From assembly GCF_038594945.1 (NCBI RefSeq), contig NZ_JBCFYD010000001.1, positions 186,001 through 250,000 on the forward strand: a stretch of DNA of 64,000 nucleotides, in the 5' to 3' direction. Position numbers and translations under genes: made by a program. This stretch comes from Fodinibius sp. Rm-B-1B1-1 (lineage in GTDB: Bacteria > Bacteroidota > Rhodothermia > Balneolales > Balneolaceae). Numbering within the stretch: position 1 is the first letter of the stretch; each line of letters starts with the position of its first letter. Shown here piece after piece: positions 21,105-27,240 of this stretch. A model generated the notes under the pieces. That model was not told where the DNA came from. It searched no databases and was given only the letters and a program-made list of their open reading frames with translations.

Positions 21105-21671
21105 TTACTGTCTCCACTTTCTCTTAAAACAGTGGTGTAACCTACTTAGAATGCGAGACTTTTTGGTCCTTACATTAGCCCCTGAAATATCAAAGTGGGC
21201 TGCAGCTTCCTTGGTCGTTGCATCCGGCTTATCAATAAAATACTCAATGAACCTTCGAGATTTATCACGCAGCTCTTTAAGACAGGCTTCTAAAATAGCC
21301 TGTCGATCTTTGTCCATCAGGTTTTGAAACTGCTCCGCCGGATCAACCAAGTGATCTTGGTGATCCTCAACCGGATTATTGAAGCGGTGTTGCTCTTTAG
21401 AATAACGAAAATATTCATGCCTACAAGCTCGTATCAGGTAACTAAATATATACTTTTCGTTACGGATATTATCCTTTTTAATCTGCTCATACACATTTAA
21501 AAAAGCTTGCTGCGTACACTCTTCAGCATCTTTCTCATTCGCATTTAGCACTACCTGTAAATAGTCTTTCAACCTATACATCACTTCTTTAAGAAGCTCA
21601 TTAGCCTTTCCCTCCCTATTTTGCTGAAGAGCATAGACTAATTCCGAATAATCAACTCTGGAGTTACTCAA
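21105..21671 (-). CDS. ECF-type RNA polymerase sigma factor
   Basis: 188 residues with the two-domain ECF layout. Region 2 (about 25-95) includes DAEECTQQAFLNVYEQI and the promoter-melting FSYLIRACRHEYFRY. Region 4 (about 125-185) has a helix-turn-helix of the form TTKEAAAHFDISGANVRTKKSRIL. The start is a TTG at 21671; reading back from there the frame reaches a stop with no ATG, so TTG is the best choice. It is divergent from a lipoprotein/CHAT gene block and probably directs its transcription. No dedicated zinc-finger anti-sigma gene is adjacent; the TPR membrane protein at 26168-26908 is the candidate partner. Confidence 0.88.
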   Translation of the reverse strand: MSNSRVDYSELVYALQQNREGKANELLKEVMYRLKDYLQVVLNANEKDAEECTQQAFLNVYEQIKKDNIRNEKYIFSYLIRACRHEYFRYSKEQHRFNNPVEDHQDHLVDPAEQFQNLMDKDRQAILEACLKELRDKSRRFIEYFIDKPDATTKEAAAHFDISGANVRTKKSRILSRLHHCFKRKWRQ

Positions 21672-21857
21672 GGTAGTGTGTAAACCTAAATTTAGTGAAC
21701 CATCTTATTCACGAAAATGCAACCATAAAAAGCCGTCCGTAATATTTGTGCTCACTAATATATAATTATTGAAGAAGCATGCAAATATTATAATATAGTG
21801 TAATATTGAAGTTATTTTAATTAGTGATAAATAATATTTATTTAGAATAATAATATT

Positions 21858-21886
21858 TTGTAACAAATAAAGTAAAAATACTCTTG
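21858..21886 (+). promoter_or_regulatory. Putative ECF promoter/operator, copy A
   Basis: TTGTAACAA, 12 bases, then TACTCTTG, followed by TAATCA. The spacing fits -35 and -10 elements of an ECF promoter. It is about 230 bp upstream of the first lipoprotein ATG. Confidence 0.6.
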
Positions 21887-21938
21887 TAATCAGGAGTTGA
21901 ATATACTTAAATATTAAAATTTAAATTATAATATACTT

Positions 21939-21947
21939 TTGTTACAA
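21939..21947. promoter_or_regulatory. Half site TTGTTACAA
   Basis: The inverted form of the first box of the shared motif, lying between copies A and B and embedded in the palindrome TTTTGTTACAAAA. No matching TACTCTTG follows on the minus strand, so it is not a full site. It might serve the divergent sigma factor gene. Confidence 0.35.
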
Positions 21948-21986
21948 AATAATAATATACACTGTGGCGAATAAACGCAGCTTATT

Positions 21987-22016
21987 TTGTAACAAATCAA
22001 AGTTTGAGTACTCTTG
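21987..22016 (+). promoter_or_regulatory. Putative ECF promoter/operator, copy B
   Basis: TTGTAACAA, 13 bases, then TACTCTTG and again TAATCA. It ends about 100 bp before the first lipoprotein ATG and is the more likely transcription start for the cluster. The conserved part shared with copy A spans about 36 bp. Confidence 0.62.
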
Positions 22017-22118
22017 TAATCAACTATCAGTATGTTCAAAGAGCGCTGATATAGCGTTTGCCGCATGCACATAATCAAAACGTTACAACATTTACCTTAA
22101 TCTAAAAACCTACCAATT

Positions 22119-22298
22119 ATGAAATCTTTTACTCACAAACTCTTAGCTATCATCTTTTCTGTTGCACTGTTCACCGGCTGTGCTTCGGTCACCGATTCTG
22201 GCATCGACCAGCAGCCCGAGCAACCTACATCTACAATCGAAAATCCTGACTTTGGCTCTGAATCTACTATGGATCCCATTGTTGATCGTCCTGAGTAA
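22119..22298 (+). CDS. Small lipoprotein, tandem copy 1
   Basis: 59 residues. An N-terminal MKSFTHKLL segment and hydrophobic core lead to lipobox FTGC, so the mature chain is lipidated at C21 and only 39 residues long. The mature part is acidic and Pro-rich, with SGIDQQPEQP, ENPDFGSES and MDPIVDRPE. No known domain. First of three near-identical genes, downstream of two ECF-type promoter motifs and upstream of the CHAT gene. It could be a structural peptide, a signal, or a protease substrate. Real gene status is supported by the lipobox and by conservation of the frame through the repeat. Confidence 0.82.
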   Translation: MKSFTHKLLAIIFSVALFTGCASVTDSGIDQQPEQPTSTIENPDFGSESTMDPIVDRPE

Positions 22299-22347
22299 GC
22301 AAAGCCTTTTTCCCAATATTCTCTCTTAATTCAAAACTCTCTCTATT

Positions 22348-22527
22348 ATGAAATCTTTTACTCACAAACTCTTGGCTATCATCTTTTCTGTTGCACTGTT
22401 CACCGGCTGTGCTTCGATCACCGATTCTGGCATCGACCAGCAGCCCGAGCAACCTACACCTACAATCGAAAATCCTGACTTTGGCTCTGAATCTACTATG
22501 GATCCCATTGTTGATCGTCCTGAGTAA
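22348..22527 (+). CDS. Small lipoprotein, tandem copy 2
   Basis: 59 residues with the same lipobox FTGC at C21. Relative to copy 1 it has a Val-to-Ile change at residue 24 and Ser-to-Pro at residue 38. The spacer before it carries no new promoter motif, so it is probably co-transcribed with copy 1. Confidence 0.82.
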   Translation: MKSFTHKLLAIIFSVALFTGCASITDSGIDQQPEQPTPTIENPDFGSESTMDPIVDRPE

Positions 22528-22576
22528 GCAAAGCCTTTTTCCCAATATTCTCTCTTAATTCAAAACTCTCTCTATT

Positions 22577-22756
22577 ATGAAATCTTTTACTCACAAACTC
22601 TTGGCTATCATCTTTTCTGTTGCACTGTTCACCAGCTGCGCTTCGGTCACCGATTCTGGCATCGACCAGCAGCCCGAGCAACCTACTCCCACGGTCGAAA
22701 ATCCTGACTTTGGCTCTGAATCTACTATGGATCCCATTGTTGATCGTCCCGAGTAA
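22577..22756 (+). CDS. Small lipoprotein, tandem copy 3
   Basis: 59 residues. The lipobox here reads FTSC (Gly-to-Ser at position 20), still acceptable for lipidation at C21. Other differences from copy 1 are Ser-to-Pro at residue 38 and Ile-to-Val at 40. It is followed by 98 bp and then the CHAT gene on the same strand, with no terminator seen between. Confidence 0.82.
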   Translation: MKSFTHKLLAIIFSVALFTSCASVTDSGIDQQPEQPTPTVENPDFGSESTMDPIVDRPE

Positions 22757-22854
22757 GCAAAGCCTTAACTAATTTACTTTGTTATGGATTTTCTATTTAA
22801 ATATAATAGCTTTGATTATCCTTAGACTATTAACCTCAGTCCTAACTTTAGGAT

Positions 22855-25800
22855 ATGTATCTACTTTTACTATTAGGTTTTCTACAATTCAGTGCATCGG
22901 CCGATAGTAATTTAGTCCAACAATCACAGGCTCAAGCTAATCACTATATCCAAAATATTGATCAGGAGAGAAATATCGAGGAAAACCTTTGGGCGTTAAC
23001 AGTATTAGTTTCTGAACATCCCAAAATCAAAGAATCCGTTGAGCAATCAGTCCAAAAAGGAGACAAGAGTAATGAAGTTCTAAAACTTTTTGAAAGTATT
23101 GAACCAACTTACAGCCAGCAGCTCGAAAAAATTGTCTTTAAAACGGGTTCTAACAAGCTTTTTATTGACCTACTCTTAGTCACCGAAAAAGATAGAACAA
23201 CCCTGTATCAACAATTCACATCCTCATTCAGTTGGGAGGGTGGCCAAGCAAGCTTCAATTATGAATTACTTGCCCAAAACATTATAAAAGATGAAACGAT
23301 CGGGGATGATATCATTCAAAATGAATCATTTAGTTTACCTCACCTCTTTCTTCTCTACCGAGCACACAAACAACTAAAAGATTCATACACTAGTCGAATT
23401 TTAGACAACTGGTCAAGTCGAGGAAACTCATCTAATACTCTTTATTCTGCTCTCTATCATGCTTCGTATTTAAGGGCTTTGTATCTGAAGTATGACTATA
23501 GTAAAACTACTGATATATTTAACCCCCTTTTAAGTGACAGTCTCTTTCCTAATTCGAACTTAAAACTTAAGCTCTATCAGTATCTTGACTATTCTATGTA
23601 CCGGCTGGGATACTATGATCGAAGCTTAAAAATCGTCCGTCAACACTCTTTACCACTCACTAATTATCTTGAAAAAGAAGAAGAACGAATTCAAACGAGA
23701 CAATTACAAGGAGTTTATCTTTATAGCATAGGTAAAATTAAAAAAGCAAAAGAAATTTATGAACAAGTACTTAATGATGTTATTAAAAATAATATTAACA
23801 TTTCTAAATCATCCCTATATAATAATTTAGCCTTAGCTTATTATAGGTTAGGAAATTATGACAAATATTTAGACCTACAATTACAAGCTTTAGAAACAGC
23901 AAAAAAAAATAATAATTACTCTCACCAATTAAGTGTTTTTAACAATCTATTCATTTTTTACAGATCAAATAAAGATTTTGACAATGCTCTTAGATATTTA
24001 AATAAAGCCGAAGATTTAGCACAAGAAAAAAATAAAAGAGAGCAACTCGGTAAAATATTCACTCTTTACGGTTCATTTTACGCAAAATTTAAAAAGAATT
24101 ACAAACAAGCACATAATTATTTTGCTAAAGCTAAGGAAATATTAAATAGTAAAAGTAATGCTAAGTATTACATCGACCTTCTAAAAGACCAAGCTGATAC
24201 TTACGAAGAACAGAATCTCTTTTTAGAAGCACTTAAAAAACATAACCAAATAATCAAACTAACTCCTGATCAAAATAGTCCTAATTATATAGATGCAATT
24301 GTAAATAAATCTTTAGTAAATATTAAAACTGGTGACTTAAATACTGCTAATAAAAATATCCGGAAATTTAAATCTCTTAATCTTAACACTCTCGAATTTC
24401 AGCAAATCATTAAAGCCAAAACGGTAGAGGCAGAATATTTAACTGAAACAGGTAGTAAAAATAAAGCGCTAAAAATCCTTGAACCGGCCCTCAATCAAGT
24501 TGTAGTCCGTGCCCAAGGAAGCACTGATTTAAAGTCCGGCTTTTGGCATGTTGAAGACGAGTACCTTGATGCCTTTGAACTTGCTGCTTCTATTTATATC
24601 GCCACCAATAAGCCTGGCAAGGCCGTTGAAAAACTGGATCAGCTTAAAACAATCAACGATGCTTCGCTCTATCAGAATCCTTTGGTTAAATCAAGTCTGC
24701 TTAATGAATCCGAACTAACCGAATATAAACAGTTAACAAACCAACTTGATGCGGTTCGAAAAAAGCTTCTTACCGCTTCTGAGGGTCAACAGTTTCAACT
24801 TCGCCAACAGATTAATCAGCTTAATACCAAGAAGCGTAAATATGATCGTAAGCTAACCAAGAATATTGACCTCAATCCCACCTCTATTCGAGATGTTCAA
24901 AACAAGCTGTCAGCTAAAGAACTGTTATTTCATATTACCGAGCTTAATGATCAATTTTATATTGCCAAAATATCCCGATCTGATGTTACCTTAGATACCA
25001 TAACACTCAATAACGAGCTTAGGGATTTATTTACATCTACCGTTGAACAAATTTCGACTGGTGAAACAGACCTCATTTCTCTTCACAAGATATCCTCACT
25101 CTTAGAACTCCAGGAGATTCCGGACCGAATTGAACAAATAACTCTTGTCCCGGATAGCTATTTCTATCAGTTACCATTAGATATTCTACCGCTCGAAAGT
25201 CCATCTACCAGTTATAGCTATGGAGAAGTAACCTACGCTATTGAAAAATTTAACACCCAATACCTTACAACTCTCGAAGAGTTTACCAATCCAAATACGT
25301 CGTCTCCCTCACAAAATCCTATAAATTATACTGGCTACGGGATTTCTGACTTTAGCAACTATCGAAACCCATCGTTAGTTCCTCTTCCCTATGCCCAGTC
25401 AGAAGTCAATCAGATTGCAACCAAACTCACTCATTTGTCCCAAAATGAGACTTATATAAATGAGCAATCAACAAAATCTACTTTTCAGCAGACCGCACCA
25501 AATTCTCAAATCATCCACCTCGCTACCCATAGTGAGGTCTCGGATCGCGACCCTATGTTTTCAACCGTCTATTTCAGCAAAAACCATGCTGGTCAGGACA
25601 GCACCTTCGATGACCGAATTTTTGCCTATGAACTGTTTGAACTTGATCTGAGCAATGAAATGATTATGCTCAATTCATGTGAGTCTGGATCAGGCTCATA
25701 TATACAGGGAACCGGGGTGATGGGGATTAGCCGAGCACTTCAATATGCCGGTGCTCGATCACTGGTATTAAACCTATGGTCTGTTAATGATATGCTTGCC

Positions 25801-26073
25801 TCAGATTTTGCAGTTCATTTCTACTCCCAATTAAACGAAGGAAAGTCTAAAGCAGAGGCATTACGAGATACCAAACAGTACTTCTTAAATACAAAAAATG
25901 CCGACCCACATTTCTGGGGACCCTATATGCTTATAGGAAACACGGACCCCATCGTTAAACCACAACAAAATGCAAACCTGGCAATGGCCGGTGCTTTTAT
26001 CTTCTATTTTCTTTTTATGATTGGCTTATCATTTCTCACCCAACGAGGAATAATTTTTTCAAGGGGTAAGTAA
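22855..26073 (+). CDS. Periplasmic, membrane-anchored TPR-CHAT (caspase-like) protein
   Basis: 1072 residues. A short signal peptide (MYLLLLLGFLQFSASA) is followed by a helical region with TPR repeats (about 225-560, for example LALAYYRLGNYDKY) and a coiled-coil-like stretch near 620-690. The C-terminal CHAT domain (about 700-1035) has the expected caspase-type dyad: H892 in HLATHSE and C942 in LNSCESG. A final hydrophobic helix (about 1043-1062) and basic tail anchor it in the inner membrane, so the TPR and CHAT parts face the periplasm. An in-frame stop at 22849 fixes this start. It probably cleaves a partner protein on a signal. The middle of the gene is very AT-rich (Lys/Asn-rich repeats), unlike its ends. 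Confidence 0.88.
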   Translation: MYLLLLLGFLQFSASADSNLVQQSQAQANHYIQNIDQERNIEENLWALTVLVSEHPKIKESVEQSVQKGDKSNEVLKLFESIEPTYSQQLEKIVFKTGSNKLFIDLLLVTEKDRTTLYQQFTSSFSWEGGQASFNYELLAQNIIKDETIGDDIIQNESFSLPHLFLLYRAHKQLKDSYTSRILDNWSSRGNSSNTLYSALYHASYLRALYLKYDYSKTTDIFNPLLSDSLFPNSNLKLKLYQYLDYSMYRLGYYDRSLKIVRQHSLPLTNYLEKEEERIQTRQLQGVYLYSIGKIKKAKEIYEQVLNDVIKNNINISKSSLYNNLALAYYRLGNYDKYLDLQLQALETAKKNNNYSHQLSVFNNLFIFYRSNKDFDNALRYLNKAEDLAQEKNKREQLGKIFTLYGSFYAKFKKNYKQAHNYFAKAKEILNSKSNAKYYIDLLKDQADTYEEQNLFLEALKKHNQIIKLTPDQNSPNYIDAIVNKSLVNIKTGDLNTANKNIRKFKSLNLNTLEFQQIIKAKTVEAEYLTETGSKNKALKILEPALNQVVVRAQGSTDLKSGFWHVEDEYLDAFELAASIYIATNKPGKAVEKLDQLKTINDASLYQNPLVKSSLLNESELTEYKQLTNQLDAVRKKLLTASEGQQFQLRQQINQLNTKKRKYDRKLTKNIDLNPTSIRDVQNKLSAKELLFHITELNDQFYIAKISRSDVTLDTITLNNELRDLFTSTVEQISTGETDLISLHKISSLLELQEIPDRIEQITLVPDSYFYQLPLDILPLESPSTSYSYGEVTYAIEKFNTQYLTTLEEFTNPNTSSPSQNPINYTGYGISDFSNYRNPSLVPLPYAQSEVNQIATKLTHLSQNETYINEQSTKSTFQQTAPNSQIIHLATHSEVSDRDPMFSTVYFSKNHAGQDSTFDDRIFAYELFELDLSNEMIMLNSCESGSGSYIQGTGVMGISRALQYAGARSLVLNLWSVNDMLASDFAVHFYSQLNEGKSKAEALRDTKQYFLNTKNADPHFWGPYMLIGNTDPIVKPQQNANLAMAGAFIFYFLFMIGLSFLTQRGIIFSRGK

Positions 26074-26120
26074 CTCTTCTCACTTAAAGAATAAGAGAAT
26101 ATCTTTTTTGGCTGCATAGA

Positions 26121-26144
26121 TCTGTCTAAAAAAATTCAGACAGA
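26121..26144. terminator. Possible hairpin between convergent genes
   Basis: TCTGTCT and AGACAGA form a 7-bp stem with a 10-base loop, between the ends of the CHAT and TPR genes. It has no strong T-tract, so it is a weak candidate. Confidence 0.4.
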
Positions 26145-26167
26145 CAAGACAAAACCATTGATGCCTG

Positions 26168-26908
26168 CTAATCAGACAGGGCATTCAAATAACTTTTAGC
26201 AACACGGCGATACGCTCCATTTAGTTCATAAGCCTTCTCAATATTGGCTCTTGCATCAACCAGCTGATCCAAGTGGAAGTGAGCATTACCGATATACCAG
26301 TAAGCTTTTTCTAACATTAACGCATCAACTTGATCATTCTCCTGATGTTCAATAACCTGCTTATAATAAGCAATTGCCTCATTATAAGCTCCCTGGTTAT
26401 AATACAAGGATCCTATATTAAGACTCAACTCTGCAATCCATTCTGGTTGGGTAGCCTTATTAAGTTCATTCTGAAGTAATGATATCGCTTCTGCATCGCG
26501 CCCCGTATTTGCTAATCGAATAGCATTCTGTATTACTTCCTTATCAGATGTTTGAGACGTTATAGTACCATCACCAGACCGATAATAATCAAGCTCAATA
26601 CTCGAAATAGGTTGGATTGCTGACTGTTGCTGATTGTTAATATTCATAAAAGCCAATACTCCAATCAACAAAGCAATGACCGCAGCTGCAGCATAATACC
26701 AATATTTTCGTGCACTTGTACGCTTCTGCTCTTCTCTGCGTTGCTTTACTACAGCTTTGAGATTCGCTACGCTCTTAAGATAATCCAGATGGTAACCATC
26801 CTGAATTAACTCAGCCCACAGCTCATCAACTTCTTGGGCAGAGAGCTGACCATTGACATATTGATCAATCTTTTCTTCCAGCTCTTTCTTATTAAAACTT
26901 TCAATCAT
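26168..26908 (-). CDS. Single-pass TPR protein, anti-sigma-factor-like
   Basis: 246 residues from the ATG at 26908 (a TTG lies four codons upstream). The N-terminal cytosolic part (1-69) contains IDQYVNGQLSAQEVDELW, the pattern seen at the start of many Bacteroidota anti-sigma or FecR-like proteins, but without the His/Cys of zinc-binding ZAS domains. A transmembrane helix spans about 70-89. The outside part (about 130-240) has two or more TPRs (IGSLYYNQGAYNEAIAYYKQ and the next, YIGNAHFHLDQLVDA). Its promoter region carries the motif also found before the lipoprotein genes. Inferred role: membrane sensor that holds the ECF sigma factor. Confidence 0.72.
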   Translation of the reverse strand: MIESFNKKELEEKIDQYVNGQLSAQEVDELWAELIQDGYHLDYLKSVANLKAVVKQRREEQKRTSARKYWYYAAAAVIALLIGVLAFMNINNQQQSAIQPISSIELDYYRSGDGTITSQTSDKEVIQNAIRLANTGRDAEAISLLQNELNKATQPEWIAELSLNIGSLYYNQGAYNEAIAYYKQVIEHQENDQVDALMLEKAYWYIGNAHFHLDQLVDARANIEKAYELNGAYRRVAKSYLNALSD

Positions 26909-27240
26909 GACTTTATCCAATGTTTAAATCGTAAACAAATACACTTATTTACGATAGCTAATAGTTTTTAACTCTTCTAAGTTCATTCCTCAAGAGTATT
27001 TTATCTCCCACTTGTTACAAGAGATTTCAACAAAAATCTTCCAATTAATAGTCTCATACTATAAAAGGTTAGTTCACGGACAATCAAGAGGTGAAACCTC
27101 AATAATATTAGAATTTTTTAATATTCTAAAGGTCTAAAACACACACCGATTTTACCACTACTAAACGTTATGCATTCTTTTCGGTTATAAGTAACTTTGG
27201 ACGAGCTATCCCCAAAACTTTGTTATCCACCATTACTGTC
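26909..27240. other. Intergenic region with divergent promoters
   Basis: About 330 bp. Holds copy C of the ECF-type motif for the TPR gene, an inverted repeat at 27108-27129 (TTAGAAT / ATTCTAA), and a TAACTTTG box at 27191-27198 that resembles the Bacteroidota -7 element and may serve the GH3 gene. Confidence 0.5.
26991..27020 (-). promoter_or_regulatory. Putative ECF promoter/operator, copy C
   Basis: On the minus strand TTGTAACAA, 13 bases, TACTCTTG: the same two boxes and spacing as copy B. It ends about 80 bp before the ATG of the TPR membrane protein, linking that gene to the lipoprotein/CHAT block. Confidence 0.62.

Follow-up and report, generated by a model that had tools for sequence, protein, structure and literature searches.

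A CRISPR-free locus of TPR-CHAT protease, ECF sigma factor and small lipoproteins in Fodinibius: a candidate separase-like circuit at the cell envelope

Among described systems, the closest to the locus reported here is Craspase (CASP) of type III-E CRISPR, whose components Csx29, Csx30 and CASP-sigma likewise bring together a TPR-CHAT protease, an extracytoplasmic function (ECF) sigma factor and a sigma inhibitor. The available portion of PMC10028731 reports that Csx29 cuts the sigma-factor inhibitor and that copies of the sigma motif lie within the Craspase locus itself, and it describes the full consequence of this sigma circuit as still open. We analyzed a 64,000-nucleotide stretch of Fodinibius sp. 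Rm-B-1B1-1 (contig NZ_JBCFYD010000001.1, positions 186,001 to 250,000; hereafter the window) in which an ECF-type sigma factor gene (sigma A), three small lipoprotein genes, a TPR-CHAT protease gene and a gene for a single-pass TPR (tetratricopeptide repeat) protein lie together. Compared with Craspase, the protease and its predicted cut site would here be periplasmic, the predicted anti-sigma factor would be a membrane TPR protein, lipoproteins are added, and no Cas1 was found in the genome.

Three further systems share parts of this design. Eukaryotic separase has the same protease-domain fold and cuts at EXXR sites, which the candidate site described below resembles, and securin is a residue-Pro pseudosubstrate, a role that the residue-Pro lipoprotein tails of our locus may parallel; separase acts in the chromosome segregation of eukaryotes, whereas the present protein is a bacterial envelope protein encoded beside a sigma factor. 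DegS of E. coli is a serine PDZ protease that takes a C-terminal peptide as its signal, in contrast to the caspase-like CHAT enzyme here. What the DegS-RseA-sigmaE pathway has in common with our proposal is its logic, a periplasmic protease that cuts a membrane anti-sigma factor (as outlined in the accessible part of PMC10028731). Finally, in the DdvA/DdvS system of Myxococcus xanthus, the structure of DdvA resembles the modeled fold of our TPR-CHAT protein, with the difference that fold and anti-sigma function reside in one protein there, while TPR and TPR-CHAT proteins are encoded by separate genes here and are accompanied by lipoproteins. This likeness, seen with a predicted model, suggests that coupling of a similar fold to ECF anti-sigma function already exists in another system. 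As of 2015, according to the accessible part of PMC4374960, it was unknown what signal inactivates DdvA.

A search of full-text literature, which left most subscription papers outside its scope so that a prior mention is possible, turned up Craspase and other CRISPR papers but none that describes a TPR-CHAT/ECF sigma module free of CRISPR, or its lipoproteins. Proteases that cut anti-sigma factors are known; what appears to be new, judging from sequence, is a periplasmic CHAT protease, its candidate site, the lipoprotein array and the independence from CRISPR. The features of the locus, with strand and basis, are as follows.

21105..21671, minus strand: ECF-type sigma factor, sigma A, 188 residues, TTG start (gene call, Pfam/NCBIfam, orthologues in relatives)
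21859..21886, plus strand: promoter-like element TGTAACA-N13-TACTCTTG, distal copy (genome pattern match; repeats the next copy)
21988..22016, plus strand: promoter-like element TGTAACA-N14-TACTCTTG, about 100 bases 5' of the first lipoprotein gene (pattern search)
22119..22298, plus strand: small lipoprotein 1, 59 residues, lipobox Cys, tail DPIVDRPE (open reading frame, alignment)
22348..22527, plus strand: small lipoprotein 2, 59 residues, near-identical copy (open reading frame, alignment)
22577..22756, plus strand: small lipoprotein 3, 59 residues, near-identical copy (open reading frame, alignment; 229-bp tandem unit)
22855..26073, plus strand: TPR-CHAT caspase/separase-like protease, 1072 residues (Pfam, alignment, model)
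26168..26908, minus strand: single-pass TPR protein, predicted membrane anti-sigma factor, ATG start (alternative TTG 12 bases further up)
26579..26581, minus strand: codon of TPR protein R110, predicted CHAT cleavage site ELDYYR|S (from conservation of the Arg; cleavage itself putative)
26991..27019, minus strand: promoter-like element TGTAACA-N14-TACTCTTG, 5' of the TPR protein gene (pattern search)

The TPR-CHAT protein runs from an N-terminal hydrophobic segment through a TPR superhelix and the CHAT domain (H892/C942, with an invariant D979) to a C-terminal hydrophobic helix, and the TPR protein from a helical N-terminal domain (residues 1-69) through a membrane helix (70-92) and a linker containing R110 to a TPR domain (121-246). 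An initial annotation of the window had put every one of these genes where we find it and had correctly located the H892/C942 dyad, both residues of which are invariant in the alignment of relatives. Its topology, with the CHAT and TPR domains outside and the N-terminus of the TPR protein inside, fits the sequence, as judged from sequence and model; the shared promoter-like element, with three copies in the window, was absent from it.

Gene order and a shared promoter-like element

Matches to the proteins of the locus are widespread: at E 1e-10, and with paralogues included, the sigma factor was matched in 115, the CHAT protein in 121 and the TPR protein in 102 of 146 relatives. We compared 60 stretches, mostly picked for sigma and TPR genes lying close together on one contig, so that the counts below describe structure, not frequency. 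The order sigma (-), small lipoproteins (+), TPR-CHAT (+), TPR protein (-) was identical in all 39 complete loci of the window's type (type A), which comprise the window and 38 loci from relatives (L044-L062 and L064-L082). One more locus with the same arrangement, L098 of genome G077, was left out of the 39 because the stretch ends within its sigma gene, and at L051 the CHAT frame is interrupted in the assembly. Loci of a paralogous type (module B; L013, L092-L094 and L097) are arranged differently, with adjacent sigma and TPR genes. Among 47 TPR protein loci from named genomes, 43 bear a title or genus counted as Balneolaceae/Balneolales, to which we take Fodinibius, Aliifodinibius, Gracilimonas, Balneola and Rhodohalobacter to belong, and 4 are metagenome-assembled genomes with other titles. 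Identities to the window's proteins are correlated over 38 loci (Spearman 0.69 for sigma and CHAT, 0.70 for sigma and TPR protein), much as would be expected from shared descent.

Two copies of the promoter-like element in the window fit TGTAACA-N14-20-TACTCTTG, for which 0.00 matches are expected, and the third copy has a spacer of 13. Across the whole genome, the pattern TGTAACAN{11,17}ACTCTTG is matched six times, three times at this locus, against once for the reversed control. We surveyed the relatives with a relaxed form of the element (TGTAAC, a spacer of 14-18, and at most one mismatch in ACTCTT), which lies no more than 200 bases ahead of the first lipoprotein gene in 35/43 loci (shuffled mean 0.12; opposite strand 0) and of the TPR gene in 30/46 (shuffled mean 0.06; opposite strand 1). 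The spacer is 16 in 34 of these 35 lipoprotein elements and in 29 of the 30 TPR gene elements; within 400 bases the counts are 37/43 and 34/46, with spacer 16 in 33/37 and 28/34. The element was found before the sigma gene in 0/43 loci, at 200 bases and at 400 alike (shuffled mean 0.04; opposite strand 1). Autoregulation of the sigma gene was rejected, there being no element on its strand.

Presence of the element also follows presence of the sigma gene. In a survey of 84 genomes, with a sigma factor counted at >=45% identity (in G022 over part of its length), the strict element occurs in 34/37 family genomes with the sigma factor and in 1/14 without it (Fisher p 1.5e-8, a value that ignores relatedness), the single exception being G039; outside the family, 6/33 genomes have hits. 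Genomes with a close sigma A yield 134 element hits in total, against 6 for the reversed pattern. Because its presence follows the sigma gene in this way, we read TGTAAC-N16-ACTCTT as probably the promoter used by sigma A.

Several points weigh against this assignment. Within 400 bases the element is missing before the lipoproteins in 6/43 loci and before the TPR gene in 12/46, and the sigma gene itself never carries it. Outside the window's family it precedes the TPR gene in 0/8 loci, while most lipoproteins there do have it (L078-L082 yes; L076, L077 and L091 no). Genomes without a close sigma A show 14 element hits against 7 reversed-pattern controls, and there is some likeness between the element and the vegetative promoter of Bacteroidota, TTTG / TAnnTTTG. 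A purely vegetative promoter is disfavored by the absence of the element from 13/14 sigma-less family genomes.

Together, gene order and element make a conserved module with its own regulon element very probable. The grouping of the four gene types goes beyond chance, the same arrangement being found in other genera, and the signaling module proposed by the initial annotation is supported by the kept gene order and an element tracking the sigma gene.

Some loci have no recognizable sigma gene. In two genomes of the window's genus, G001 and G011, a search at E 1e-10 finds no sigma A and there are 0 elements, yet the lipoproteins, CHAT and TPR protein are kept. In L140 of Fodinibius roseus, which by its coordinates is the locus of G011 and not an extra case, the sigma gene is missing and two lipoproteins, CHAT and the TPR protein remain (L140:4208-7211); the lipoprotein tail is altered, no sigma-like open reading frame lies in the 2.3 kb beyond the lipoproteins, and a gene for a TPR-containing histidine kinase stands directly before the TPR gene, as if replacing sigma as the output. 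In G039, the short contig C64 (L193) carries type A TPR and CHAT genes and two elements with no type A sigma gene detected, which probably reflects a gap in this 340-contig assembly.

The protease, the TPR protein and the lipoprotein tails

We assign sigma A to the ECF group, with sigma regions 2 and 4, on matches that all lie below curated cut-offs: E 0.0079 for region 2 and 0.0023 for region 4 in Pfam, and 1.6e-11 (TIGR02989) and 4.6e-11 (TIGR02985) in NCBIfam. The protease assignment is firmer, as its CHAT domain matches Pfam PF12770 at 172.5 bits against a cut-off of 24. H892, C942 and D979 are invariant in 42/42 aligned CHAT proteins (7 of 49 rows were left out as partial or near-duplicate), and the catalytic dyad is present in 48/49 rows when partial ones are included, the exception, L091, being cut by a contig end. 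D979 is the sole invariant acidic residue after the catalytic Cys in the 42 sequences, and we presume it, from its position, to be the equivalent of separase D2151, an assumption that has to be set against the cleavage argument below.

The model of the TPR-CHAT protein (mean predicted local distance difference test, pLDDT, 86.4; predicted template modeling score, pTM, 0.77) found Csx29 as its top match in a fold search (Z 26.1, root-mean-square deviation (rmsd) 8.2, 574 residues). It also matched separase 5fby (Z 24.2, rmsd 3.6 A, 307 residues) and, with residues 320-1028, the transmembrane anti-sigma factor DdvA (Z 21.0, rmsd 10.4, 519 residues). For the CHAT region, phmmer returned no solved relative up to E 10; profile A7 gave three chance-level matches to solved structures and the whole-protein profile A4 matched only TPR proteins. 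Because these sequence searches found none, the link of the CHAT domain to solved relatives rests on the fold search.

The TPR protein, which like the TPR-CHAT protein contains Pfam TPR repeats, gave a model with mean pLDDT 84.4 and pTM 0.59 in which the N-terminal domain forms three helices; its membrane helix (70-92) is hydrophobic and follows a basic flank, as judged from sequence and model. L22, L30 and W31 of the N-terminus are invariant in 34 sequences, and the commonest Pfam family among these N-termini is zf-HC2, a usual anti-sigma domain family, matched weakly and in 8/34 members (best E 3.5e-4). Foldseek with the TPR protein matched TPR folds and was uninformative on the N-terminal domain, and an assignment of that domain to RAP repeats (profile search of the PDB, best E 4.7e-7) was rejected as a chance match from two copies of a short motif.

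In the window's genome a paralogous sigma gene (37% identity) has a paralogous TPR gene (33% identity) directly behind it, and because paralogous sigma and TPR genes are thus paired at a second locus, we infer that the TPR protein binds the sigma factor. A role as membrane anti-sigma factor is accordingly what we consider likely for the TPR protein, on sequence grounds. Three results tell against it: the N-terminus of the window's own TPR protein has no zf-HC2 match, no His or Cys is conserved among the 34 N-termini, so that the conserved His/Cys zinc ligands characteristic of zf-HC2 are missing, and the domain exceeds the cut-off of no known anti-sigma family.

The paralogous module B of this genome lies at L013:6556-17302 (contig C1, about 874.6-885.3 kb), where two TPR-CHAT genes, seemingly without a C-terminal membrane helix, stand near the sigma-TPR gene pair. 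The TGTAAC-ACTCTT element is absent from it, and plausible small lipoproteins were not found in module B: across seven stretches, a lipobox filter left four implausible open reading frames in two.

In the TPR protein, the linker that joins membrane helix and TPR domain has no predicted helix or strand, and it contains R110, invariant in 43/43 sequences (48/48 before near-duplicates and partial rows were dropped). An acidic residue stands at P4 in 36/43 and Ser at P1' in 31/43, so that the context is mostly [D/E]xxR-S. No basic residue of the periplasmic part other than R110 and R235 is invariant. All six paralogous TPR proteins examined by eye also have an Arg in the linker, four of them with acidic P4. 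By analogy, this motif resembles a separase site, and we see an even balance for and against CHAT acting on the TPR anti-sigma factor.

On the opposing side, P4 is non-acidic in 7/43 sequences, the linker Arg is also kept in the sigma-less locus L140, and an invariant Arg can have causes other than cleavage. According to the available excerpts of PMC9729208, separase cuts after EXXR with D2151 reading the Arg, whereas Craspase has K670 at that position; Csx29 does not cut after a conserved Arg, as Csx30 is cut after L407. The accessible part of PMC10028731 places the Csx30 cut between 427 and 429. As far as these excerpts go, K670 and cut sites in Csx30 that lack a conserved Arg on the Craspase side contrast with an invariant Asp, D979, in our proteins.

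The lipoprotein triplet is a 229-bp tandem repeat of 3 copies with 97% matches, and one to six short lipoprotein open reading frames occupy every sigma-CHAT gap of the 39 loci (38/39 by script; L053 has Ns). These copy numbers are lower bounds: contigs of G002, G004, G009, G017, G055 and G060 end in or next to the lipoprotein gap, and several other gaps hold Ns, as is to be expected of repeats that interrupt assembly. Copies within an array share a mean of 96% DNA identity (54 pairs), compared with 19-76% protein identity between a window copy and those of 27 other genomes, a contrast that points to concerted evolution or a recent amplification. Strong lipoprotein matches in the window's genome are confined to the three copies at the locus; two more matches are weak (9.5e-5 and 4.5e-4).

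The lipobox Cys and the tail Pro are invariant in 28/28 aligned rows. In the tails of a larger set of copies, to which G002 contributes two, the basic position is followed by Pro in 45/45 and occupied by K/R in 43/45, and 40/45 fit a pattern in which a hydrophobic residue lies two positions ahead of the basic one. That these tails act on CHAT is a tentative reading, somewhat more doubtful than not. In L077 and L080 the basic residue before Pro is replaced, and in sigma-less L140 the tail reads GP at this place; moreover, clostripain cuts Arg-Pro bonds, so a lipoprotein tail could be a target. Cleavage of the small lipoproteins by CHAT, as the initial annotation had suggested, is thus possible, and the Pro after the basic position in every copy fits a pseudosubstrate at least equally.

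A possible circuit and its rivals

The observed gene set and order, the invariant catalytic residues, the invariant Arg and the element with its link to sigma presence can be joined into a circuit, free of CRISPR, by which a separase-like protease would govern a cell-envelope regulon and in which sigma binding, cleavage, the lipoprotein role and the envelope signal are presumed; we give this proposal about the same chance of being right as wrong. At rest, the TPR protein would use its cytosolic N-terminal domain to hold the ECF sigma factor at the inner membrane. In the periplasm, the membrane-anchored TPR-CHAT protease would cut the juxtamembrane linker of the TPR protein after Arg110 ([D/E]xxR-S) and so start the release of sigma. 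The lipoprotein tails, with [K/R]-Pro near their end, would occupy the active site of the protease or a TPR groove as an uncuttable, securin-like pseudosubstrate; alternatively, the lipoproteins may be sentinels whose misplacement triggers the protease. Free sigma would then transcribe from TGTAAC-N16-ACTCTT promoters the lipoprotein-CHAT unit, the TPR protein gene (which would feed back negatively) and distant targets, for example a receiver-only response regulator. The initial annotation had already raised release of the ECF sigma by CHAT; the invariant linker Arg and the Csx29 precedent sharpen that idea, which remains a proposal.

A bolder version, which we judge unlikely in its entirety, would make the locus a bacterial separase-securin analogue at the envelope. 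In it, a membrane-anchored CHAT with separase-like specificity would cut the TPR anti-sigma factor at the conserved [D/E]xxR-S site, and the dedicated, tandemly amplified lipoproteins with their [K/R]-Pro tails would serve as its pseudosubstrate inhibitor and as envelope sensor. The order would then have the system as a core regulon, and the Craspase sigma circuit would have a relative free of CRISPR that perhaps models its ancestor. If the circuit is real, a caspase-like protease would join the periplasmic regulated proteolysis of anti-sigma factors, and a small lipoprotein family present in every complete type A locus examined would gain a role. Bacteria would also have a new way to sense trouble outside the cell, through a protease, lipoproteins and a TPR protein that control one transcription factor from the envelope. 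With its predicted cut site, predicted promoter and natural sigma-less genomes, this chromosomal, CRISPR-free version makes the logic testable in ordinary cultured bacteria.

Another arrangement of the same parts would make CHAT and the lipoproteins outputs of the sigma regulon, with the TPR protein alone as sensor and the induced CHAT processing lipoproteins or other envelope proteins. Since the element precedes the lipoprotein-CHAT unit, that unit would stand downstream of sigma, and in G001 and G011 the lipoproteins, CHAT and TPR protein persist although sigma A has no match there. The lipoproteins also lie directly before CHAT, and substrates of CHAT proteases are commonly encoded nearby, according to the available excerpts of PMC9729208. 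Yet a sensor consisting of the TPR protein alone would have no need of an invariant linker Arg with mostly acidic P4, and the Pro after the basic position in every tail (45/45) likewise speaks against this arrangement, to which we assign a low probability.

It is less probable still that the lipoproteins report on trafficking, normally going to the outer membrane and, on transport failure, binding with their tails to a TPR domain, either that of the TPR protein or that of CHAT, and switching sigma on, in parallel with NlpE, RcsF and the outer membrane protein tails at DegS. The invariant lipoprotein Cys and tail Pro (28/28 rows) would suit such a role, and both partners match TPR folds, some of which were solved with bound peptides according to their titles. 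It would amount to a variant of the circuit proposed above in which the lipoprotein activates rather than inhibits. Independent neighbors kept together by slow rearrangement, with the element as a general promoter type, would agree with the stability of the locus and its wide spread in the order, but are very improbable given that the element is absent in 13/14 sigma-less family genomes and stands before the sigma gene in 0/43 loci, and that the arrangement is kept across families.

Finally, the initial annotation had left room for a defense module, and an anti-phage or programmed cell death module related to Craspase would have in its favor the protease class shared with Csx29. In the available part of PMC12288465, DdvS, the partner of our fold match DdvA, controls a defense island in Myxococcus. 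PADLOC-DB 2.0.0, however, matched none of lipoprotein, CHAT and TPR protein, and sigma just once and weakly (LeoB, E 0.0067), and we found neither a CRISPR-like array in positions 11000-37000 of the window nor Cas1 in the genome. No viral contig among those searched has a relative of the TPR protein, and of 169 plasmid records with CHAT- or TPR-like stretches none covers 80% of CHAT. As in the window, a nagZ-like gene lies <=2 kb from the TPR gene start in 16/19 named loci tested (13 at 43-72% identity and 3 at 34-35%; L140, L146 and L147 are without it), and the system looks core chromosomal, not mobile. On these PADLOC, flank, viral, plasmid and Cas1 results we rejected defense as the principal reading and hold it to be highly improbable.

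Candidate targets beyond the locus

The three element matches elsewhere in the window's genome are intergenic and precede genes for a receiver-only response regulator, an HU/DUF4469-type protein and a PAS histidine kinase. The first of these recurs: in six genomes of two genera (G000, G002, G004, G008, G010 and G014), a gene for a receiver-only response regulator is preceded by the element at a distance of 47-64 bases (L010:3819-4181, L153, L155, L157, L169 and L175), which makes it look like a fixed member of the regulon. We examined 40 stretches with element hits outside the module, many of which gave no convincing gene; further candidate targets among them were M23 and C10 peptidases, a MacB/FtsX permease, a ParA-type ATPase and an HU/DUF4469 protein.

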